Assembly: GCA_019454915.1 (NCBI GenBank)
Contig: JACFNM010000054.1
Location: forward strand, 1 to 12,858
Direction: 5' to 3'
DNA from: Chitinophagaceae bacterium
GTDB taxonomy: Bacteria; Bacteroidota; Bacteroidia; Chitinophagales; Chitinophagaceae
DNA length: 12,858 nucleotides
Positions 1 to 12,858 of this stretch are shown piece by piece. A program made the position numbers and the translations under genes. The stretch's first letter is position 1; every line of letters begins with the position of its first letter. The notes beneath the pieces are model-generated. The model ran no database searches. It saw only the letters and a list, made by a program, of their open reading frames with translations, and was not told where the DNA came from.

Positions 1-1726
1 ACTTCACCGTTAGCTGTCTTTTTTGCTTGTCATACACATACAAATCAAAAGCCCCCGCACCGCCACCGGTATGAGTACCCTTTACATAAACAGTAACGGT
101 TCCGTCTGCAGGAAGTATGGTACGGTAATAATCGCTTCTGTCGGTAACACCATCTGCCACATAACCGAGATGTCCTCTAACCACTTCCTGGTACAGCAAT
201 GGCAAAGCCTGTGGCAAATCATCGTTAGGCTCTTTATCATTGGCACTTTGATCGAGAACCTCGTAACTGATGGCATAATCAAAGGATTGGTTACTATTCT
301 GGTACAGCAAAAAGTACAACGTATCAGCCGCACGGGAGTACACGCGTACGGTATCTGAAAACTGCTGCCCTAACGAAATATTTTTTCCCCCAAGTGTGTA
401 CTTCACCGTTAGCTGTCTTTTTTGCTTGTCATACACATACAAATCAAAAGCCCCTGCACCGCCACCGGTATGAGTACCCTTTACATAAATCGTAACCGTT
501 CCGTCTGCAGGAAGTATGGCACGGTAATAATCGCTACGGTCAGCAACCCCATTGGCTACGTACCCTATTCTGCCATAGAGCGTATCGTTGGGTAAGATTT
601 TCAGTGCCTCTTCAGGTGTGTCGTTGGGCTCAGCATCGTTCGGACTGATCCGTGTAATTTCATAACTTATACTGTAATCAAAACTTGGATTGCTGTTTTG
701 ATACACTAAAAAATACAGGCTGTCAGCCGCACGGGACGGAATTTCAATGGTGTCGCTAAACTGTTCCCCCAAACCAATATTTTTACCTCCCAAAGTGTAC
801 ACAACCGTTAACTGCCTTTTCTGTTTGTCGTAAGCATAAAAATCCAGTGCTCCCGCACCTCCTCCGGTATGGATGCCGCTTATATACACCTTTACCGTAC
901 CTGTTTCCGGTACAAAGGTTTTATAGTAATCACTTCGGTCAGTTACCCCGTTTGATATGTTTCCAATACGGCCATACCTGGTTTCCTGATGAGCAATAGG
1001 CGAAGCTTGCGGGAAATCGTCATTCGGCTCAGGATCATTAATATTCTGATCCGTTACCTCATATTGCAGGGAGTAGCTGAAGGACTGGGAACTATTTTGA
1101 TATATCAGAAAATAAATGCTATCTGCTTCCCGGGAATAAATGCGAATAGTATCTGTAAATCGTTCACCCAATGACACATTTTTTCCTCCGATTGTATATT
1201 TTACCTGGATTTGCCTGCCCGCCTTATCGTAAGCATAAAAATCTAACGCACCATGTCCTCCACCTGTATGAACTCCTTCTAAAAAAACAGTTACAGTACC
1301 GCTTGTCGGCAACAATGTTTTAAAGTAATCTCTTCGATCAGTTACGCCATTGGCTATGTATCCAATCAGCCCTTCTATCTTTTGTTTATGTTTGATTGGC
1401 GCAGCAGTTGAAAAATCATTATTTGGCTCAGGATCATTGGTGCTTTGGTCAAGTACTTCGTATTGCAGTTTAAAGTCAAAGGTTTGGCTGCTATTCTGGT
1501 ATAACAACAGATAAATACTATCAGCATCACGGGAATAAAGACGCAGGGTATCTCTGAATTTTTCTCCTTTATTAATGTTTTTGTTACCAAGCGTATATTT
1601 GACGGCGATCTGACGTTTTCCTTTATCGTACGCATAAAAATCAATAGAGCCGGCGCTCCCCTCTTTATGCTCACCTTCAATATATACTGTTACCGTACCA
1701 TTGGCAGGCAGTAAAGTTTTAAAATA
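1..1726 (-). repeat. Tandem 399-bp coding repeats, four full copies plus one partial
   Basis: Units anchored at the conserved Tyr codon of the DY(Y/F)K motif start (minus-strand 5' ends) at 1726, 1327, 928, 529 and 130. Each step is exactly 399 bases (133 codons) with no insertions or deletions between copies at the anchors I checked. The two copies nearest the window start are nearly identical over about 130 bases (1-135 against 400-534 differ at roughly five positions), while the promoter-proximal copies 1 and 2 differ extensively. This suggests recent duplication or gene conversion toward the 3' end of the gene. Confidence 0.9.
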
Positions 1727-1864
1727 ATAATAACGGTTTGCAGGGCTAACCGTACCGGTTTTGCTTGTACCGGCGGTTAGGGATTCGGCGGTTGAAAAAT
1801 CAGATTGTGCCAACATTCCCTTCCAACTGAAAAATGTAATCAGGCTTAGTAAAATAAATCTCAT
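1..1864 (-). CDS. Exported tandem-repeat protein with PPC-like domains (3' end outside window)
   Basis: The minus-strand frame opens with ATG at 1864 and stays open to the window edge, giving 621 visible residues and no stop. Residues 1-19 form a signal peptide (short basic start, hydrophobic core, cleavage likely after Met-Leu-Ala before Gln-20). The mature part is a chain of 133-residue units at exact spacing: four full and a fifth cut by the edge. Each unit has an EPN(N/D)D-type entry, a GxIGY segment, TDRxDYYKT, LPxxGTVTVY, a glycine-rich HTGGG turn, LDFYAYDK, and a YQNSxQSFDY strand near the end. This order resembles bacterial pre-peptidase C-terminal (PPC) beta-sandwich domains; that assignment is pattern recognition, not a search. 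The gene follows a porV-like gene by 46 bases, so it may be a T9SS cargo, but the C-terminus that would carry a T9SS sorting domain is not visible. Function unknown; likely surface-exposed or secreted. Confidence 0.88.
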   Translation of the reverse strand, partial: MRFILLSLITFFSWKGMLAQSDFSTAESLTAGTSKTGTVSPANRYYYFKTLLPANGTVTVYIEGEHKEGSAGSIDFYAYDKGKRQIAVKYTLGNKNINKGEKFRDTLRLYSRDADSIYLLLYQNSSQTFDFKLQYEVLDQSTNDPEPNNDFSTAAPIKHKQKIEGLIGYIANGVTDRRDYFKTLLPTSGTVTVFLEGVHTGGGHGALDFYAYDKAGRQIQVKYTIGGKNVSLGERFTDTIRIYSREADSIYFLIYQNSSQSFSYSLQYEVTDQNINDPEPNDDFPQASPIAHQETRYGRIGNISNGVTDRSDYYKTFVPETGTVKVYISGIHTGGGAGALDFYAYDKQKRQLTVVYTLGGKNIGLGEQFSDTIEIPSRAADSLYFLVYQNSNPSFDYSISYEITRISPNDAEPNDTPEEALKILPNDTLYGRIGYVANGVADRSDYYRAILPADGTVTIYVKGTHTGGGAGAFDLYVYDKQKRQLTVKYTLGGKNISLGQQFSDTVRVYSRAADTLYFLLYQNSNQSFDYAISYEVLDQSANDKEPNDDLPQALPLLYQEVVRGHLGYVADGVTDRSDYYRTILPADGTVTVYVKGTHTGGGAGAFDLYVYDKQKRQLTVK

Positions 1865-1910
1865 AACTGTATCATTTAAACAAAGAAATTATACCGGCTG
1901 GTTTAACCTT

Positions 1911-3035
1911 TCATTGATTTGCATTGTCCCAATGCAGTAACAGCGAAAAGCGAAGGGTATTGGAAAGCGGGTTCTGATTCACTCCGCTACCGGATGGCAG
2001 CAGATAAGAAAAATTAAATCCAAACATATTGTAACGTACACCAATACCTGTTGAAAGATATTGTCTGCCGCCTCTTTTTGCTGACTCATAATAATAACCG
2101 GCACGGATAGCAAACTTTTGCAGATAGCTGTATTCTATTCCTGTAGCCATACTGGCTTGACCAGGAAAACTGCTGAAAGAACTCCCCCAGCTTTCTGCTA
2201 CATTTTTCATGCGGTATTGCCTGATAGCTTCCGGTGAATCTCCATTCAGCTCAGGCACCAGCAGTTTATTGATATCAACTGCTATTGAAAAACTATGCAC
2301 TTCATTCCATACCTTGTTCCATGATGCACCCAGACCCCAGTTGGCTGGTATGAAGTCTTTTTCCGTCGCATTTTTTATATAGGATATTTTACTGCCCAGG
2401 TTCGACAGTGCGGTTCCCAATGTAAATCCGTTTCCATAAACCCGGTTATCAAAGTACAGTCCGATATCAGCGGCAAAAGCAGCCGCATTCTTGTATTCGT
2501 AACCCGGTACAGAAAAATTGCTTGCCAGTGCCGAGTGAATATAGCGGGCTGATATCCCCAGTCCTAATTTTTCCGAAAGCATGCGGGAATAAGTTACATC
2601 CAGGCTCATTTCTCTGGGACGACTGCTACCCAGGTTGTTGTGCCCATCGGTAGTAAACTGAATATCGCCCAAACTGAAATAACGCACCCCCAAACCAAAG
2701 GCCTGATTTTCACCTGCTTTCGCAAAACCCGCAGCCGACAAAAAATAAACATCATTGCTAATTTCTTTTAACCATGGGATATAGGATATGACAGCAGATC
2801 CGGCATCCGGACTAAATACCAGCTTACCTGCATTCCAATAGGCAGATCCGGCATCAGGCCGCGTAGCGATACCAACATCACCCATACCGCCCGACCTGGC
2901 ATCAGGTGTTATACGTAAAAATGGTACCGGAGTGGTAGTAAGGTTCAGTAATTGCTGTGACCAAACGGTTTCAACGGATAAAAAGATAAAGGTAGTAAAC
3001 ACCACTACCCGTTTAATAAGCGCTATCATACTCAT
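1911..3035 (-). CDS. porV: PorV-family outer-membrane beta-barrel protein (type IX secretion)
   Basis: This 374-residue protein has an N-terminal signal peptide (about residues 1-26, cleavage after Val-Trp-Ser before Gln-Gln). The mature N-terminus carries the PorV hallmark: a VPFLxIxPDAR segment followed by GGMGDVG and a DAGSAYWNAGK stretch. Further PorV-like segments are IPWLKEISND, the LGVRYFSLGDI strand, LSNLGSKISY, and VDINKLLVPE. The remainder alternates short amphipathic strands with glycine turns, ending in an aromatic-rich strand as expected for a 14-stranded FadL-like barrel. Known role of the family: PorV (LptO) binds T9SS cargo leaving the translocon and delivers it to the PorU sortase at the cell surface. 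porU is often the neighbour of porV but is absent here; instead a TPR-CHAT gene lies 75 bases upstream and a repeat protein downstream. It may therefore be a dedicated paralog rather than the housekeeping copy. Start ATG at 3035; Met-3 (3029) is an alternative. Confidence 0.85.
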   Translation of the reverse strand: MSMIALIKRVVVFTTFIFLSVETVWSQQLLNLTTTPVPFLRITPDARSGGMGDVGIATRPDAGSAYWNAGKLVFSPDAGSAVISYIPWLKEISNDVYFLSAAGFAKAGENQAFGLGVRYFSLGDIQFTTDGHNNLGSSRPREMSLDVTYSRMLSEKLGLGISARYIHSALASNFSVPGYEYKNAAAFAADIGLYFDNRVYGNGFTLGTALSNLGSKISYIKNATEKDFIPANWGLGASWNKVWNEVHSFSIAVDINKLLVPELNGDSPEAIRQYRMKNVAESWGSSFSSFPGQASMATGIEYSYLQKFAIRAGYYYESAKRGGRQYLSTGIGVRYNMFGFNFSYLLPSGSGVNQNPLSNTLRFSLLLHWDNANQ

Positions 3036-3063
3036 GGTGTAAAGTAGTTATACGCTTATATCG

Positions 3064-3071
3064 CAAAAATA
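3064..3071 (-). promoter_or_regulatory. Possible -7 promoter element upstream of the porV-like gene
   Basis: The minus strand reads TATTTTTG, a full match to the Bacteroidota -7 consensus TAnnTTTG, with 28 bases between its end and the ATG at 3035. A TTG -33 element is not found at the usual distance (TTT sits there), so the promoter is uncertain. If active, it would allow transcription of the porV-like gene and repeat-protein gene independently of the sigma/CHAT genes. Confidence 0.35.
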
Positions 3072-3110
3072 CCGTTTAGTGAACAGAAAAAAATGAATTT
3101 TCGATAAAAA

Positions 3111-6100
3111 TCAGGATTTTTTTCTCAGCAGAAAATACCAGCATACTACCGCAACCAATAATAACCCGGCTACCCATGCCCATTTGGTGTAGAATGGAGA
3201 TTCAAACAGAGGATCTTCACTGCCAACAAGCGTCATACCTGCCCAAAAGTAAGGATGTGCTAAAGTGCTGCCCGCTGATTGCAGATGATGCAGTTTGGCC
3301 AAACGCAAAGATTCGCTTTTGGTTTTTCCGTCCGCGAGGTATTTATAAAAAGTAGTAATAATATCTGCACTGGATTTCTCGTCTATTTTCCACAGGCTCA
3401 TCACTACGGAGGGGCAACCGGCATACATAAAGCTATGGGCCAGCGACATAACCCCTTCTCCCTGCCTCCAGTTACCCGATCCTGTCTCACAGGCGGTAAG
3501 AACCGCTAAATCTGCCCTTAATTGCATCGCATAAATCTCATAAGCATACAGATAGCCATCATCTCTATCGGTTGAATCTTCCTTCAACGGCTTTGCCATA
3601 AAAAACCGCGATTGCAGCGGGGAACTATTGTTCACTTCCGCATGAGTACCCAGATGTAAAATATTATATTGACTCGCTCTTTGTTTGAATTCACTTTCTA
3701 TAGCAGCCTGCTCCGCAAATAAATCACTACGGATAAGTTTACCGATTTCACGTGCCGCCCGTATTATAAACGGTTGTCGCATAAGCGTGAAATATTGCCG
3801 GTCTGCCAAAGAAGAATCTCCAACTGACTGAAGATACCTCTGCTTCATGACATCGGTGAATACCGGAGCGAATAACAAAGCCTTATCTTCCGGGCTGTTT
3901 TGCTTATGGTCAAACAATAAGGCCGACGTCGTTAACTGGTAGGATATCTCATACCGGTTAATGAGATAGTTCATCTTGCTGAAATCGTGCGTACTGCTAT
4001 CGGAAATGAGCACTTCAAAGTTGAGGTAAAACAATTCATTGTCGGGTATAATCACCAATTGCTTTGTAGTGATATACCGCTCTACCGGCTGGATAAGGGT
4101 ATTAAACAGTTGATAAGAAGCCACACTAAACCTAACGGGGCCGGTATTATACAGCTCCTTCAACACGCTTACGTTTTTCAAAGCATCCCGCGACAGGCGT
4201 TTGACTTCAAATTGTTTGCCATTCAGGACAAATACAAAAACAGCGTTATCAGTTACTACATATTCTAATAATGTTTGCTTATGATTTTTCAGTTGGTTTT
4301 GTACCTCCGTAATACCCGCAGGACGAAGGTTGTACCGTCTTCTTGTCAACTCATCGCCTGACCGGTAAAGGCTATCCTGAAACCGGGAATACATTTCCAC
4401 GGAAGAAGTAAGCAAAGTCAGCAGCGAATCATTTTTCTTCTCTTCGTCGAGGTATTGAGTATTCAGCGAACTGATTTTTTTACGCCAATAAAGATCCTGC
4501 TCATCCGCTTCGCTTAAGACAGTCCGGCTCGCATCAACCATAATGTTATTGGAAGATAATCTGAGGAGGAGCGATCTGCTGCTTTCGGCAAATGCAAAGG
4601 CCTTTTCAAGATACCCCCTGTCTTTAGTATGCTGAAAGAGCTCCCAGCACGCTTCTATAGCAAGATTATACATTCTCCGGTGCTGGCTGGCTATCTGTAT
4701 GAGTGTTGCCTGCATCCTAAAGGCAGGTATACTTTTCTCAAAATAAGACTCATACCGGTCTGCCAATTCAATTGTGTTCTTCAATAGTTGCAAACTTCCA
4801 TTCTTTTTATAAAGAGCAGACTCAATTTCAGAACGGTGATTCAGATAACGAATAATAAAATGACTATACGGAAGTTCCTGTACCCAGTTGGTATCCGGTA
4901 AGACAGGAACCTGCAGAAGTTCCAGGAATACACTATCTGAGAAACGAAGCGCAAGCTCCTGTTGATTATCCAAATAATAAGTCTGGCTGATTTTATCATA
5001 TTGTCCGGCAATAACAATATTTCCTTTCGGGTAACCTTTCCGATACCGGCTCAGTACATCTTTCAATAGTTCCAATGCTTCCTTCGTTCGTCCCTGCCGG
5101 GCATAAGACTCCGCCAGCGTTGTTCGGGTTTGCTCTACAAGTGAATTATCAATGACACCTGCTTTCCGGTTATTTAATAACGATTTAGCGTATAAATTTT
5201 CTGCCTTTCTGTAGTCCTTTTTGTCAAAAAAGAGATCTCCATATTGGGATTCCACATAAGCCATGTTGCGCCAATCGTCAGCAGCCACTTCTTTCTGTAA
5301 ACTATAAGCCTGGTTATACAATGCATCCGCCTCCTCATACTTTTCAAGTTCTCTTTTTACATTGGCCAGGTGCACCAGCGGTCGTACGTACCCCGCACCG
5401 GAAGAGCCGAAATTAATTTCATGCAAGCTCCTGGATTTTTCAAAATATTCCTCTGCCAACTGGAACTCTCCCATAGCATTGTATAGATTACCCATATTGT
5501 TGTAAGCTATCGCCAGCAGTTGCGGATTTTTGTGTTTGGCATAATCACGCTGAATGATCTCCACCATTTTCTGCCGGTGAAAAACAGCTTCGTCCAACCG
5601 GTACATACTCTCGTACAGGGTGCCGAGGTCATTATGAATGAGCCCCATGTTAGGGTGATCAGGCGGAAGATGCAGGTTCCCCAGCCGAACCAATTCCGTT
5701 CCGTATTTCTCTGAATCGTTAAACCACCCTGCGTCGTGCGCTATGAGCATCAGACTTTGATAAACGCCGATTAGAGATCGACTATCCCTGCCGTACATCG
5801 TCTCTATCATATTCCGTGCCTTCTCTGCGTAATGAAGTGCATCAGGAAAATTCTGCAGTTCCAAATACAGCCAACTGATATTGTTGTATAAATCGGCATA
5901 AATATCATTGGGCTTCGCATCGTCCGGTATTCTTTCCAGCGCCTGCATAAAGTATCCCTTTGCCTTTTTCGCTTCTGCATTGTGCACGAGTATTTGCGCT
6001 TTCTGATTTAATGCAGCTATCCGCGCAACGCTGTAATAGGATAAACGCGATGCTATTTCCAGCGCTTCATCTACTGTCCGAAGAGCAGGACGGTTACCTT

Positions 6101-6317
6101 CCTGTCTCCAAATCATGTTCGCCTTTTGCACATAAGCAAAAGTCAGGCTGTCATCATGCTGTATTCTTCTAAAATAAAGGATAGAAGCATTGATATAATA
6201 AGTAGCGCTGTCGTATTGCTGATTCCGGAAAGCTTTTTCCGCTTTTTCAAAATCATTGTTTTGTGCGTAACCCGTCCACCAAAGGGACACAATGCAACAT
6301 AAAAATGACCAGCGCAT
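3111..6317 (-). CDS. Exported, membrane-anchored TPR-CHAT caspase-like protease
   Basis: A 1068-residue protein from the ATG at 6317. The frame also has an in-frame TTG at 6326, but the ATG gives a clean signal peptide (residues 1-19, ending Thr-Gly-Tyr-Ala before Gln) and lies 9 bases after the upstream stop. Residues about 25-460 hold some nine tetratricopeptide repeats, for example the YNNISWLYLELQNFPDAL, NDLGTLYESMYRLDEA and YNNMGNLYNAMGEFQLAEEY helix pairs. A helical linker follows, then a CHAT domain (about 680-1040). The catalytic dyad is visible: His-892 in LHLGTHAEV and Cys-943 in LTACETGSG, followed by the family's GEGVMSLAHSFMYAG and SVVMSLWKID stretches. A hydrophobic segment (about 1046-1064) followed by RKKS is a C-terminal membrane anchor. 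CHAT proteins are caspase-clan cysteine peptidases; TPRs normally receive the activating signal. Signal peptide plus anchor place TPRs and protease on the periplasmic side. Substrate unknown; the anti-sigma and repeat protein are neighbours to consider. Confidence 0.92.
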   Translation of the reverse strand: MRWSFLCCIVSLWWTGYAQNNDFEKAEKAFRNQQYDSATYYINASILYFRRIQHDDSLTFAYVQKANMIWRQEGNRPALRTVDEALEIASRLSYYSVARIAALNQKAQILVHNAEAKKAKGYFMQALERIPDDAKPNDIYADLYNNISWLYLELQNFPDALHYAEKARNMIETMYGRDSRSLIGVYQSLMLIAHDAGWFNDSEKYGTELVRLGNLHLPPDHPNMGLIHNDLGTLYESMYRLDEAVFHRQKMVEIIQRDYAKHKNPQLLAIAYNNMGNLYNAMGEFQLAEEYFEKSRSLHEINFGSSGAGYVRPLVHLANVKRELEKYEEADALYNQAYSLQKEVAADDWRNMAYVESQYGDLFFDKKDYRKAENLYAKSLLNNRKAGVIDNSLVEQTRTTLAESYARQGRTKEALELLKDVLSRYRKGYPKGNIVIAGQYDKISQTYYLDNQQELALRFSDSVFLELLQVPVLPDTNWVQELPYSHFIIRYLNHRSEIESALYKKNGSLQLLKNTIELADRYESYFEKSIPAFRMQATLIQIASQHRRMYNLAIEACWELFQHTKDRGYLEKAFAFAESSRSLLLRLSSNNIMVDASRTVLSEADEQDLYWRKKISSLNTQYLDEEKKNDSLLTLLTSSVEMYSRFQDSLYRSGDELTRRRYNLRPAGITEVQNQLKNHKQTLLEYVVTDNAVFVFVLNGKQFEVKRLSRDALKNVSVLKELYNTGPVRFSVASYQLFNTLIQPVERYITTKQLVIIPDNELFYLNFEVLISDSSTHDFSKMNYLINRYEISYQLTTSALLFDHKQNSPEDKALLFAPVFTDVMKQRYLQSVGDSSLADRQYFTLMRQPFIIRAAREIGKLIRSDLFAEQAAIESEFKQRASQYNILHLGTHAEVNNSSPLQSRFFMAKPLKEDSTDRDDGYLYAYEIYAMQLRADLAVLTACETGSGNWRQGEGVMSLAHSFMYAGCPSVVMSLWKIDEKSSADIITTFYKYLADGKTKSESLRLAKLHHLQSAGSTLAHPYFWAGMTLVGSEDPLFESPFYTKWAWVAGLLLVAVVCWYFLLRKKS

Positions 6318-6326
6318 TTGTACCAA

Positions 6327-7061
6327 TTAATAGGGAAGTTTTTCAATATCTTTTTTCAACAGCTCTGCCTGTTGTTTGTCTGTAATTTTATCAACCCATT
6401 TTTTTGCCTCACTGATCCGGTCAAATTTCAAACAGGCCAGTGTCAGGTACCATATTGCCCTGTCTTGCCAAACACTTTCCTGATTTTGCGCTACGCGCTG
6501 CAGATACGAAACGGCTTCGGGGTTGCGATCATTTAAGAATGCCAGCCCCATATAATATTGCAGCGTATCGTTCACGTCATTTTTTTTGTAGACCTCAGCC
6601 CATATTTCAATAGCGCGATGATAATCCTCCTCCTTATAGCTAATCATTCCATCATAAAAATCATAATTGTTATCGTTGCCACTCATCACCACCGGCAACC
6701 CCGAATCCGGAACAAAATACCGCGCATATACGGACTCGGCAGAAAGAGAACGAGTTCGATAAAACCAGGCGCCTGCCAGTACCAGTACAATGGCAGCCGC
6801 TGCATACCAAAGCATGACTTTTTTGTTCCCCATTGACTTAACGGGCGCCAAACTCTTCTTAATCCAGGAGCCGTCTTCGTGGGAGAGAGTTTCTGCCGCA
6901 GCTATCAAGCGTTGTTGTAAGCGAACCTCGTTCCGGAGTTTTTCATCATGTTTCATCTCTTCTTCAAATCCTGCCCGATCCTCCGCGGACATCCTCTGGA
7001 GCAGATATGCTTCTATTCGTTCGAATAACTCCTGATCAATCTGGTTTTTATAGTTTTCCAT
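6327..7061 (-). CDS. Anti-sigma-like membrane protein with periplasmic TPR-like domain
   Basis: This 244-residue protein has three parts. Residues 1-80 are cytoplasmic and charged, with the IEAYLLQRMSAEDRAGFEEE pattern followed by charged helices typical of anti-sigma N-termini in this phylum; no HxxxCxxC zinc motif is present. Residues about 83-100 are a single transmembrane helix, followed by a YRTR stop. Residues about 125-240 contain TPR-like helix pairs (FYDGMISYKEEDYHRAIEIW, LQYYMGLAFLNDRNPEAVSYL, AIWYLTLACLKFDRISEAKKW). The ATG at 7061 lies inside the end of the ECF sigma gene (14-base overlap), the usual arrangement for a sigma factor and its antagonist; the stop is 9 bases before the ATG of the TPR-CHAT gene. 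I infer that it holds the sigma factor inactive at the membrane until a periplasmic event releases it. It could also be only a TPR adaptor; sigma binding is not proven by sequence. Confidence 0.75.
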   Translation of the reverse strand: MENYKNQIDQELFERIEAYLLQRMSAEDRAGFEEEMKHDEKLRNEVRLQQRLIAAAETLSHEDGSWIKKSLAPVKSMGNKKVMLWYAAAAIVLVLAGAWFYRTRSLSAESVYARYFVPDSGLPVVMSGNDNNYDFYDGMISYKEEDYHRAIEIWAEVYKKNDVNDTLQYYMGLAFLNDRNPEAVSYLQRVAQNQESVWQDRAIWYLTLACLKFDRISEAKKWVDKITDKQQAELLKKDIEKLPY

Positions 7062-7638
7062 CTTTTGTCATTTCTTCCATGAAAAATTTCCTCAATCTCA
7101 TCATGCAGCGATACTTAATCGTCTTTAAACTCTCTTCGGTGTCGCCGGTTACTCCTGCGATTTCAACTAATGACTTTCGTTTATAATAAAATAATTTCAA
7201 CACATCCTTACACTTTTCGCCCAGTTGAAGCCATCCCCGTCCCAACAGTTCGCTCTTATACAATTGCTCTTCAGCCATATCTGCCTCCATCATCACCAAA
7301 TCCGGCTGCTCAGCAGGATCGCCATACACCACCCGGCCTCGTGTGTTTGCCCTAAGCTGGTTTATCCATTTAAACCGGCAAATCTGCCTTAAGTAGGCTC
7401 TAAATTGGCCGGAATCTCCTTCAAATCTCCCTTCTCTCACATTGATCCACGCCGCAGTTACGCTCTCCTGAAACAAATCTCTTGCATCAGCATCCGTACC
7501 TGAATTCTGGCATACATATGTCTCAACCCAGGAATAATTTTCGGCGTAAATCTGCTTTAACAATTCCTCAGGAGTTCGGGTATTAAGGTCAATAAACTTC
7601 TCCAAAGTAAACTGGTTTCTTTTCGCCGTAAGATACAA
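7048..7638 (-). CDS. ECF-family RNA polymerase sigma factor
   Basis: A 196-residue sigma-70 family protein of the ECF type. Region 2 spans about residues 24-95, with the core-binding DARDLFQESVTAAW segment and the -10-recognising FRAYLRQICRFKWINQLR helix. Region 4 spans about 134-188, with LGEKCKDVLKLFYYKRKSL and a helix-turn-helix ending TEESLKTIKYRCMMRLRKF. There is no region 1 or 3. No in-frame ATG exists between the upstream in-frame stop (7681-7683) and the conserved core, so the start is most likely TTG at 7638; a later TTG is possible, and no Shine-Dalgarno is seen. The gene overlaps the anti-sigma-like gene by 14 bases and heads the left-hand module, suggesting that it directs this operon or an envelope regulon. 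The family assignment is firm; the target promoters are unknown. Confidence 0.88.
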   Translation of the reverse strand: MYLTAKRNQFTLEKFIDLNTRTPEELLKQIYAENYSWVETYVCQNSGTDADARDLFQESVTAAWINVREGRFEGDSGQFRAYLRQICRFKWINQLRANTRGRVVYGDPAEQPDLVMMEADMAEEQLYKSELLGRGWLQLGEKCKDVLKLFYYKRKSLVEIAGVTGDTEESLKTIKYRCMMRLRKFFMEEMTKDGKL

Positions 7639-7826
7639 TTTTTGTATCCAGTATCTAAGCCGAAACCATGGTCTAATCCCTCATACCCGAAGAACTCTCC
7701 AATTATTTATCAAATGAATACAAAAAAGGTGAACACTAAAACAATAGATAATCTCATCTTTATCGGGGAGGAGGAAAAGTCGGAATAAAAAATCTTAGAA
7801 ACGACCATACAAAGGAGGTTGCAACT

Positions 7827-10891: not shown

Positions 10892-12196
10892 TCAATCCCG
10901 CATCGCATTAATCGCATCATAAAGTACGCCTGCTTCGCCTCTGAATTCGCCCGAACCTTTTGGCTCCCCGGTACGCACATCATACCATTCATAAAATCCG
11001 TTATTGGCAAGCACCCTGTCAACCATCGGCTCCAATTCTTCATATGCCTCGTGGAAAAGACCGTAATGAACAAGCCCTCCAATCATCCTGCCGCCAAACC
11101 AGGTCCAGTCGCCTCCGTTTTGATATCTGTAGGCCGCCATATTGGGAAAGGTTTCATCAGGGTAGGGCGGAGAAACCGTAAATCCAATTGTTGCATGATT
11201 TTCTGCATGGGCTGCCGCCACCAGTTGTCTGTTGATTTCAGCTACTTCCTCCGGGGTATTGAAACCTGCGAGAACCGCGCAAATGGAACCTCCCGAATAC
11301 AAAATCTTATTTTCATCAAAATCCGCCGCAAAAGGGCTTCCATCCAAATACAGATGGGGAATATATTTTTGAGCCTGTTCGTCCCAAAGATGTTCTCTTA
11401 CATTTTGCTTCAGTTGCTCTCTTATACTTTTCCAGTCCTTGGCACTTTTGTAGTCTGATGGACAAAATTCCAAAAAAGCATCTATCGCCATGGAATACAT
11501 GGCATTATCATAGATATCTATCGCCCATTTTGTTTTGTCGTTAATAGCCACTCCCCAGCCCGATTCCGGCTGTACATCTCCCCAATCTATCGTAGTGGCG
11601 CCCGTAACCAAACCATATTTATCTGACCACCTGTCGTTTAATATATACAATAAGGCGTCCTCAAGCCGCCGGATGACGGTCTTATCCTCAATCGTCATAC
11701 TAAGAACGTCTTTATCGCCGGTAGCTTTTATATATTTTCCAAAAGCCTGTAATAACGAAGATTCCTGGTCTGTTTCTACCGTATTTTTATGGGCAGCCAA
11801 TCCGGGTAATAATTTCGAATAGCGATAATCATAACCCACGTTTGCATTGGCGGTATCAATCAACCCATCCACAATATTGCCGTCTTCCCCCTGAATTTTC
11901 AAAAACTTAAGTAAATTGTCTCGTACCGTTTCCTGCGGATGAACTTTAAGTGAACCGTTAATAAAAGTATTGAAGTCCCGAATCCAGATTTCGCCGTAGG
12001 ATGTTCCCGCAGTAAATCCACTTAAAATTCTTAATGCCCTTGCCTGGACGGTATCGAACTTACTATTCGTGATGATTAATTCCTTCAAAGGCTGTAAATC
12101 TCCTTCGGTTTTGTTTTGAGGCTGATTACAGCCTCCCAGTATATACAATAGGGAAGAAGTCAGCAAAATGAATACTAAACGGTTTATTGATTTCAT
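10892..12196 (-). CDS. Lipoprotein with six-hairpin glycosidase-like domain
   Basis: A 434-residue protein with a lipoprotein signal peptide: basic start, hydrophobic core, lipobox Leu-Gly-Gly-Cys with lipidated Cys-23. The rest looks like an (alpha/alpha)6-barrel glycosidase of the MGH1/GH63-like or amylo-1,6-glucosidase-like group. Recognisable segments are GEIWIRDFNTFI (about 68-79), TTIDWGDVQPESGWG (about 201-215), AIDIYDNAMYSMAIDAF (about 225-241), YQNGGDWTWFGGRMIGGLV (about 358-376) and GSGEFRGEAGVLYDAINA near the end. Acidic residues in these segments (Asp-74, Asp-204, Asp-207, Asp-363) are candidate catalytic positions, but I cannot assign the family or substrate with certainty. It follows the GH92 mannosidase gene by 67 bases in the same direction, which suggests a role in breaking down mannose-containing glycans at the cell envelope (inference). 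Confidence 0.75.
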   Translation of the reverse strand: MKSINRLVFILLTSSLLYILGGCNQPQNKTEGDLQPLKELIITNSKFDTVQARALRILSGFTAGTSYGEIWIRDFNTFINGSLKVHPQETVRDNLLKFLKIQGEDGNIVDGLIDTANANVGYDYRYSKLLPGLAAHKNTVETDQESSLLQAFGKYIKATGDKDVLSMTIEDKTVIRRLEDALLYILNDRWSDKYGLVTGATTIDWGDVQPESGWGVAINDKTKWAIDIYDNAMYSMAIDAFLEFCPSDYKSAKDWKSIREQLKQNVREHLWDEQAQKYIPHLYLDGSPFAADFDENKILYSGGSICAVLAGFNTPEEVAEINRQLVAAAHAENHATIGFTVSPPYPDETFPNMAAYRYQNGGDWTWFGGRMIGGLVHYGLFHEAYEELEPMVDRVLANNGFYEWYDVRTGEPKGSGEFRGEAGVLYDAINAMRD

Positions 12197-12263: not shown

Positions 12264-12858
12264 CTATTTCTCTACTCCCCAGTTCTTATTCGGGATATCA
12301 CCCATTTCCAATACCAGACTGCCACCCTTGAGCAGTTCGCTTGCCGGAAACTTAAATGAATGCAACGGTCTTCCATTCAGGGTTGCTTTCTGCACGTACT
12401 TGTTTTTCCAGGATGCATTTTTGGCTTCAATCACAAATTGATTTCCACGTCCATATAATCCTTTTAAATCAACCAGTATTTTTTCGAATAACGGGCTGGC
12501 TATTTCATAAATCGGTTCGGCATTAGCGCCGCCATCCATCTGAAACAAACCCATTGCCGCCATTACAAACCAGGCGCTCATCTGCCCCTGGTCTTCATCC
12601 CCGAGATAGGCATCCGCCGCTCCGTAGCCATAGTACCGGTCTATGATGGATCGGCTCCAGCGTTGGGTCTTCCAGGGCTCACCCGCCCAGTTGAAAAGGA
12701 ATGCAAAGTGCATGGATTGCTGATTGCCCTGCACCACCGGAAAATCCCAGTACTGATCACCGGGGGCATTATACCGCCAGGTTTCGCTTGTTTTGAAACC
12801 TTCCGTCAGACGGCTGAGAAAGCGATCTCTTCCGATGGCATGCATTAACGCAGGTACG
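12264..12858 (-). CDS. GH92 alpha-mannosidase, C-terminal part (5' end outside window)
   Basis: About 198 residues are visible; the frame is open through the right edge, and the stop is TAG at 12264-12266. The sequence matches the C-terminal catalytic lobe of glycoside hydrolase family 92: a QSMHFAFLFNWAGEPWKTQ stretch, then LGDEDQGQMSAWFVMAAMGLF (equivalent to the family's GN[DE]DxGQMSAW), EIASPLFEKI, and the closing beta-domain with IEAKNAS, YVQKATLNGRPL and LLKGGSLVLEMGDIPNKNWG. Known enzymes are Ca2+-dependent exo-alpha-mannosidases acting on N-glycans or yeast mannan in the periplasm or at the surface. The motif has Gly-Asp-Glu-Asp where Gly-Asn-Asp/Glu-Asp is common. The N-terminal domain, signal sequence and the other catalytic residues are not visible. 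Confidence 0.9.
   Translation of the reverse strand, partial: VPALMHAIGRDRFLSRLTEGFKTSETWRYNAPGDQYWDFPVVQGNQQSMHFAFLFNWAGEPWKTQRWSRSIIDRYYGYGAADAYLGDEDQGQMSAWFVMAAMGLFQMDGGANAEPIYEIASPLFEKILVDLKGLYGRGNQFVIEAKNASWKNKYVQKATLNGRPLHSFKFPASELLKGGSLVLEMGDIPNKNWGVEK

Follow-up and report, generated by a model that had tools for sequence, protein, structure and literature searches.

We analysed a stretch of 12,858 bases from a Chitinophagaceae bacterium (hereafter the window), which is the entire contig C262 of a draft genome of 4.64 Mb in 802 contigs. Five adjacent genes on its minus strand encode an extracytoplasmic function (ECF) sigma factor, a predicted membrane anti-sigma factor, a protein with tetratricopeptide repeats (TPR) and a caspase-like CHAT domain (TPR-CHAT), a PorV paralogue, and a large repeat-built exported protein. 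Our reading, to which we give a probability of roughly 0.7, is that TPR-CHAT is the periplasmic site-1 protease of the adjacent anti-sigma factor, and that the sigma factor drives its own operon and a cassette of surface proteins. At the sequence level, it is supported by gene linkage, an intact catalytic dyad, predicted topology, conservation of a linker residue in the anti-sigma factor, co-variation of this residue with the protease, and a shared promoter-like motif. All evidence comes from computational analysis of sequences, and bit scores were judged against curated cut-offs.

In the proposed mechanism, the anti-sigma factor would cross the inner membrane once, carry a TPR domain on the outer side and hold the ECF sigma factor. 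TPR-CHAT would be a periplasmic protease of the caspase family, tethered to the inner membrane by its C-terminal helix. Because TPR-CHAT has a hydrophobic segment at either end, the protease would encounter the anti-sigma linker on the periplasmic side of the inner membrane. It would cut the linker in response to a signal, for which one of the two TPR domains may be the sensor; the cut would fall after Met126 in the window and after Arg in most relatives. By analogy with RseA, the sigma factor would then be freed by additional proteolytic steps, for which RseP-like and Clp proteases are the presumed enzymes. The free sigma factor would transcribe its own operon and the adjacent cassette, which encodes the PorV paralogue and a large repeat protein secreted by the type IX secretion system (T9SS). 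We infer the cleavage, the signal, the later steps and the binding of the sigma factor to the motif.

A conserved three-gene core with a separable cassette

The sigma gene lies at 7048..7638, the anti-sigma gene at 6327..7061, the TPR-CHAT gene at 3111..6326, the PorV paralogue at 1911..3035, and the repeat gene at 2..1864, where it runs off the contig end and leaves the N-terminal 621 amino acids in the window. All five are on the minus strand, with a 14-base overlap followed by gaps of 0, 75 and 46 bases. This bears out the initial annotation, which had described five same-strand genes with one overlap and gaps of at most 75 bases.

The sigma factor matches TIGR02937 with 64.4 bits (cut-off 42.9) and Sigma70_r2 with 31.1 bits (cut-off 24), and it stays just below the cut-off for Sigma70_r4 (23.4 against 24.1 bits). 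Its orthologues, judged by eye, begin at a TTG matching a position near 7605, which suggests that translation starts there rather than at 7638. The gene directly after it is predicted to encode a membrane anti-sigma factor, which would bind the sigma factor and has a TPR outer part. Its position and its single membrane helix fit this assignment, but the NCBIfam anti-sigma model gives only 18.8 bits against a cut-off of 100. The predicted protein has N-terminal helices at 10-59, the membrane helix at 82-104, a coil at 116-129 and the TPR domain at 130-240.

A search with the CHAT protein found 20 loci, nine of which are close relatives. Together with the window and a locus of genome G036 (L056), this gave 11 close loci. 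The sigma, anti-sigma and CHAT genes occur in that order on one strand in all 11, and as the same order recurs in all nine close relatives, it is not due to chance. PorV and the repeat gene are both present in six of the 11 (the window, L005, L006, L007, L009 and L020), the repeat gene occurs without PorV in one (L010), and neither is found in four (L004, L008, L011 and L056). With the core in 11/11 close loci and the full cassette in only 6/11, the module is a three-gene core of sigma factor, anti-sigma factor and TPR-CHAT plus a cassette of PorV and repeat protein that is gained or lost. The five-gene module of the initial annotation thus exists but can be divided, and a PorV match lies within 6 kb in only 6 of 134 CHAT loci. 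The annotation had named the sigma/CHAT part and the porV/repeat part lying in unrelated places as evidence against its reading. This was seen in part: sigma/CHAT is found without porV/repeat, and distant homologues of the repeat protein are found without the core (e.g., L156, L159 and L162), but in the loci examined a porV gene adjoins this repeat protein only beside the core. PorV-family genes number two each in the genomes of L004, L008 and L011 and three in that of the window. The cassette-free G036 has five PorV-family matches, and one of these adjoins a different large type A cargo gene.

The TPR-CHAT protease

The 1071-residue protein matches the CHAT domain model PF12770 with 182.4 bits (cut-off 24). 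The domain spans residues 739-1036 and holds the dyad His895/Cys946. The predicted layout is a hydrophobic N-terminal export signal, a TPR region, the CHAT domain and a C-terminal hydrophobic helix at 1044-1070. Among the 141 TPR-CHAT proteins of the census described below, the His/Cys dyad is intact in 140, including all 97 that are linked to a sigma gene; the exception (L017) has no sigma gene nearby. By a crude hydropathy rule, 134 of the 141 have a hydrophobic N-terminus. When the whole protein was searched against the PDB by sequence, the best 60 of 182 rows were TPR or TPR-like chains only, and a search with a CHAT-only profile matched DdvA and Csx29. The window protein shares the TPR-CHAT fold with Craspase (type III-E), which is cytoplasmic, and has hydrophobic segments at both ends. 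No cas gene scored over cut-off among the 10 window proteins scanned, and no search for Cas7-11 was made in the genome as a whole.

The same genome carries a second sigma/anti-sigma/TPR-CHAT set on contig C219 (L120), with a Met linker (placed by eye) and Ser857, and a third CHAT gene on the short contig C54. Two TPR-CHAT genes stand close together in L080, L081, L085, L086, L087, L101 and L140.

Spread across Bacteroidota

A CHAT profile was run against two overlapping draws of Bacteroidota genomes; at an E value of 1e-60 or better, it matched 93 of 296 in the first and 117 of 394 in the second. We fetched 120 stretches around a subset of the matches that the family-level and phylum-level searches had given, and used open frames as gene calls. 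The census comprises 141 distinct TPR-CHAT genes of at least 700 amino acids in 134 loci, with identical CHAT C-termini counted once. L001-L003, L024-L033 and L153 were left out of it; some of them remain in a 145-row table compiled earlier, where some fragment loci were also retained.

Counting both orientations, 97 of the 141 TPR-CHAT genes have an ECF sigma gene no more than 5 kb away. Sigma gene density is 172 per Mb in the first kb from CHAT and about 16 per Mb at 6-9 kb. In the 145-row table, a sigma gene within 5 kb is present in 96 rows; its strand is that of CHAT in 44 of them and the opposite one in 52. The sigma gene is directly followed by a same-strand gene in 94 rows, and 87 of these genes match the anti-sigma profile. 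Unsupervised clustering of neighbours within 6 kb returned sigma and anti-sigma factors as the top families besides CHAT (91 loci each; the next family reached 22). The same partners in differing gene orders point to a functional association rather than an inherited order.

These arrangements also bear on the possibility that TPR-CHAT is co-transcribed with the sigma pair as an output of the sigma factor and cuts another periplasmic or surface protein, such as the repeat protein of the cassette. The CHAT gene does stand directly behind the sigma pair in the window, and the cassette has the promoter-like motif of the sigma gene. We nevertheless consider such a role improbable, for the core occurs without the cassette in 4/11 close loci, the sigma gene is on the strand opposite to CHAT in 52 of the 96 linked rows, and the co-variation reported in the next section links the protease to the anti-sigma factor.

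Two further families were seen near CHAT genes. A protein of about 299 amino acids with a lipoprotein-like start occurs in L034 and 21 other loci; the one member scanned had no Pfam match. A DUF7619 protein of 649-682 amino acids is encoded within 250 bases of CHAT in L111, L117, L119, L124, L128, L129, L138, L142 and L145, and the only member scanned (L111) also contains PKD.

Linker residue of the anti-sigma factor and predicted S1 pocket of the protease

We aligned 99 anti-sigma factors encoded near a CHAT gene. Column 126 stands out in an otherwise variable stretch outside the membrane helix: it is Arg in 68/99, Met in 23/99 and Lys in 4/99, followed by Ser in 44/99 and Gly in 34/99. Rows that deviate in this column (Gln, His, Thr, Lys or a gap) were inspected by eye. 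The residue sits 18 to 30 positions after the membrane helix. In the window anti-sigma factor it is Met126, which the model places in the coil 116-129 that joins the membrane-proximal helix to the TPR domain. Met126 is the predicted P1 residue (LPVVM/SG), and its codon lies at 6684..6686 on the minus strand, as computed from the gene start.

The linker residue follows the residue at position 857 of the neighbouring CHAT protein. With Glu857, the anti-sigma factor has Arg in 68/71. Among these 71 anti-sigma factors, the Arg column shares the first rank of 239 with one other column, Ala88 of the membrane helix, and is ahead of every TPR column. Where CHAT lacks Glu857, the linker residue is Met in 27/28, four of these having been placed by eye. 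These four (L095, L115, L120 and L122) were aligned one column off or beside a gap, and their CHAT proteins have Ser or Ala at 857. A further 20 stretches yielded eight anti-sigma factors: the column holds Arg in seven, and in L188 an Arg stands just beside it. No new Met-type linker was found among these eight, and all 20 readable CHAT proteins had Glu857/Asp983.

Position 857 shows the strongest difference between the CHAT proteins of the Met and the Arg/Lys groups, with Glu in 0/23 and 70/72, respectively. At position 983, the Arg/Lys group has Asp in 70/72 and the Met group has Glu in 23/23. An Arg linker is paired with Glu857/Asp983 in 68/68 cases, and a Met linker with Ala, Leu, Ile, Gly or Phe at 857 in 23/23. 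For comparison, we used the 20 CHAT columns that are at least 90% invariant in the Arg group. Position 857 departs in 22/22 Met rows of the main clade and in all six other rows without Glu857; position 983 departs in 22/22 and 5/6. Column 891 departs in one Met row of the main clade and in five of the other non-Glu rows, and the remaining 17 columns depart in at most 2/6.

In the CHAT model, the first strand of the fold leads into the helix that contains 857. The Cys946 loop is followed by a strand and then by a helix that begins with 983. In excerpts from PMC4626109, the P1 anchors of caspase-3 and gingipain-R are placed after the first strand, at the start of the first helix; the P1 anchor of MALT-1 lies slightly further along, and a second anchor is in helix 4. 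The modelled positions 857 and 983 fit these two places where clan CD peptidases bind P1. The placing uses the order of secondary-structure elements together with PMC4626109, and no exact register to MALT1 or separase is claimed. As the juxtamembrane linker residue co-varies with these two predicted S1-pocket positions, the anti-sigma factor is the best candidate substrate. The initial annotation had let the protease act on a periplasmic or surface substrate; in place of an unspecified surface protein, the neighbouring anti-sigma factor is now the best candidate.

Two related observations may be added. Column 891 is His in the Arg group and Gln or Asn in five of the six off-clade CHAT proteins without Glu857, and is possibly a pocket residue. 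Three genomes hold one Met-type and one Arg-type set each, namely G008 (L007, L044), G021 (L061, L050) and G413 (L092, L109).

Several observations weigh against TPR-CHAT being the protease of the anti-sigma factor. Outliers combine Gln with Glu857 (L089), Lys with Val857 (L131) and Lys with Glu857 (L090, L094). Among the Met rows outside the main clade, L095 keeps Asp983, L122 has Asn983 and L021 is a very long branch, and four Met linkers depend on placement by eye. A quick tree shows three changes of P1 type and four of 857 type. Independent pairs number one on well-supported branches and three on all branches, and a sign test on them has no power. Separase D2151, which binds the P1 Arg, is aligned with Csx29 K670 in the part of PMC9729208 drawn on here, and a profile alignment places K670 four residues beyond the residue aligned with 983. 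Craspases cut non-conserved sites (L/D, M/K and A/S; excerpts from PMC11106740), so a CHAT protease need not have a fixed P1. Moreover, 44 of the 141 CHAT genes have no sigma gene within 5 kb, some owing to contig ends, and the crude hydropathy rule finds a C-terminal membrane helix in only 96 of the 141 proteins.

The tree in particular raises the question of whether the linker Arg or Met is structural, its match with 857 and 983 reflecting the shared ancestry of neighbouring genes. Most Met cases form one clade of 22, the tree has only three to four changes, the pair test is powerless, and the linker precedes a TPR domain that possibly needs a cap. Against this, the linker column ranks level with the best of 239 in the Glu857 group and above all TPR columns. 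Outside the main clade, 857 (6/6) and 983 (5/6) also track the switch. Both are S1 positions by the order of fold elements, and the model puts the linker residue in a juxtamembrane coil. We therefore regard shared ancestry as an unlikely explanation of the match.

Promoter-like motif and likely outputs

A two-box motif, GTTNACC(T)T followed by YGATATA or a near form, is common to the regions upstream of the sigma genes in nine close loci. The second box starts 14-15 bases after ACC, and the motif lies 96-180 bases before the called sigma start. In the window, the motif upstream of the sigma gene is GTTCACCTT-N13-TGATA at 7708..7734 on the minus strand, without mismatch. It is the only match in the window; when up to two mismatches were allowed, 61 of 200 shuffled windows also matched. 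In eight orthologous loci, the sigma gene is likewise preceded by a similar site.

We trained a weight matrix on the nine sigma upstream regions and applied it to 146 genes of ten close loci. The first cassette gene scores at least 12.5 in 7/7 loci, PorV being first in six and the repeat gene in L010. In the window, the site upstream of PorV (GTTCACT-N14-CGATATA, minus strand, 3057..3084) has an imperfect -35 box and a score of 13.1, and it was outside the training set. Four other non-training genes also reach 12.5, one of them directly behind CHAT in L011. Of random 310-base stretches from the same loci, true sites included, 5% pass 11.3. On the other side of the balance, the cut-off of 12.5 is the score of the weakest cassette site and was fixed after the scores had been seen. 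The sigma gene of L010 is not among the 34 best scores, that of L056 has no strict match, and a search of the window's own genome with at most one mismatch gave 10 sites against four in a reversed control, only the sigma site being perfect. With 10 matches barely above the control, we do not claim a wider regulon in this genome. Over the fetched loci, the strict motif precedes 13/110 sigma genes and 18/1858 other genes. As it is clade-specific, no motif is claimed for Arg-type systems.

A sister form, GATGACC, precedes the sigma genes in L061, L064, L065 and L066 and lies farther off in L068. Near other cores, this form is also found before surface genes, namely those of proteins with a beta-lactamase fold in L056 and L058, an outer-membrane barrel in L061 and an 817-residue protein with a lipoprotein-like start in L065. 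Three proteins with a beta-lactamase fold and lipoprotein-like starts, encoded within about 6 kb of the core, have the promoter-like motif upstream (L056:12931-14106, L058:2173-3327 and L008:11166-12338). The motif before the sigma gene suggests autoregulation, and the outputs of the sigma factor are likely to be surface proteins that differ between lineages. The earlier suggestion that the sigma pair controls an envelope module is probably right, as a common motif precedes the sigma gene and the first cassette gene and the repeat protein is a predicted T9SS cargo.

PorV and the repeat protein

A 1254-residue frame on contig C371 of the same genome is open at its end and has a 20-base exact overlap with the first bases of the window. 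Downstream of it is a gene starting MPRLAAFPKAF, which also follows the repeat gene in L006 and the CHAT gene in L004 and L011. The C371 frame very probably continues the repeat gene of the window, the break between the two falling within a repeat. The C-terminus of the frame matches the T9SS type A sorting model TIGR04183 with 33.6 bits (cut-off 23), and the orthologue in L006 with 35.3 bits. Given this continuation, the repeat protein, whose C-terminus is outside the window piece, would be secreted as type A cargo of the T9SS, in agreement with the initial view of a secreted or surface protein. The wording "PPC-like" was also apt, as the window protein scores 17.8 bits for PPC, below the cut-off of 25.9. 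We dropped a true PPC domain: two orthologues exceed the cut-off, and no single stretch passes alone. DUF7619 is also present in orthologues of the repeat protein.

The PorV paralogue of the window scores 361.3 bits with NF033710 (cut-off 250), and a second copy on contig C462 scores 418.7 bits. Elsewhere, PorV-model genes stand beside large type A cargo genes (L157:8978-15325 and L165:8940-14065), which suggests that PorV paralogues are paired with one cargo.

Such pairs would also suit a dedicated, sigma-controlled T9SS branch, in which the PorV paralogue serves the adjoining type A cargo and CHAT replaces the clan CD sortase PorU. This appears very unlikely. The genome has a C25-family protein that is PorU-like by family (C275, 164.1 bits), a better-scoring PorV is encoded elsewhere, CHAT ends in a hydrophobic helix, and PorV is rare near CHAT genes at large (the 6/134 loci given above).

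Alternatively, information may flow inward, with the PorV/repeat pair sensing the state of the surface or the T9SS and reporting to TPR-CHAT. This is partly compatible with TPR-CHAT being the anti-sigma protease. Excerpts from PMC7712824 place PorA, a T9SS-tail protein that binds PorV, upstream of SigP in Porphyromonas gingivalis, and the DUF7619 protein is encoded next to CHAT in nine further loci. As the core is kept without the cassette in 4/11 close loci and the cassette's own promoter-like motif marks it as an output, we think a sensing role doubtful and continue to favour the cassette as a target of the sigma factor.

Comparison with known systems

The logic resembles that of Craspase/CASP, which consists of Cas7-11, the TPR-CHAT protein Csx29, Csx30 and CASP-sigma. 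In contrast to Craspase, the system of the window would act in the envelope. Its protease is predicted to be exported by an N-terminal signal and to carry a membrane helix, its inhibitor is a predicted membrane anti-sigma factor with a TPR domain, and the cut is predicted at a fixed Arg or Met. Separase, which is eukaryotic, cuts cohesin and is held by securin, differs from it. The first protease of DegS/RseP control is a PDZ serine protease, whereas that of the window would be a caspase-family cysteine protease with TPRs. In the DegS/RseP-RseA-sigma-E and RsiW systems, as outlined in parts of PMC10028731, envelope stress leads to cleavage of a membrane anti-sigma factor and release of the sigma factor. 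In DdvS/DdvA of Myxococcus xanthus (excerpts from PMC4374960), anti-sigma factor and CHAT are one chain, whereas they are two genes in the window. For the group ECF54, CHAT was noted in the genetic context and proteolytic control was proposed; in the part of PMC8999054 drawn on here, this is control without an anti-sigma factor, whereas the window has an anti-sigma-like gene directly after the sigma gene. In PorXY-SigP control, an ECF factor increases the expression of T9SS genes, porV among them, and a T9SS-tail protein acts upstream of it. SigP works with a two-component system, and no CHAT protease appears in the relevant sections of PMC7712824.

Our literature search found no description of the trio of sigma factor, membrane anti-sigma factor and TPR-CHAT, although a mention in the ECF reclassification is possible. 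A search for CHAT domain and anti-sigma factor returned Craspase only.

Other features of the window

Upstream of the module lie rnc and fabF, placed in the same way in three relatives (L004, L006 and L011). Positions 12264-12857 encode the C-terminal part of a GH92 glycosidase whose gene is truncated at the contig end, and the protein after it (10892-12196) has a weak match to an MGH1-like glycosidase. A tRNA search of the window found none. PADLOC returned only generic TPR models for the five module proteins and one weak JukA match (18.1 bits), and the idea of an anti-phage defence system was dropped on this result.

Significance

Taken together, and with somewhat less confidence than for the window itself, we favour the view that Bacteroidota possess a widespread class of envelope signalling systems in which periplasmic TPR-CHAT is a dedicated site-1 protease of ECF anti-sigma factors. 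S1 and P1 would have been re-matched at least twice, from Arg/Glu857 to Met/non-acidic 857, which could insulate parallel copies, such as those of G008, G021 and G413, from each other. Each sigma factor would control itself and neighbouring surface proteins such as T9SS cargo, lipoproteins and barrels. TPR-CHAT genes occur in about 30% of the Bacteroidota genomes sampled, and our literature search found no described substrate for them. The reading would provide a predicted substrate and cut site for many of these proteins at once, a residue pair expected to change specificity and, for a single clade, a promoter motif by which outputs can be recognised. If it is true, the CRISPR-linked Craspase would be one branch of a broader TPR-CHAT/anti-sigma logic, and Craspase and DdvA, which have been studied separately, would come into one frame as caspase-family proteins that control ECF sigma factors.

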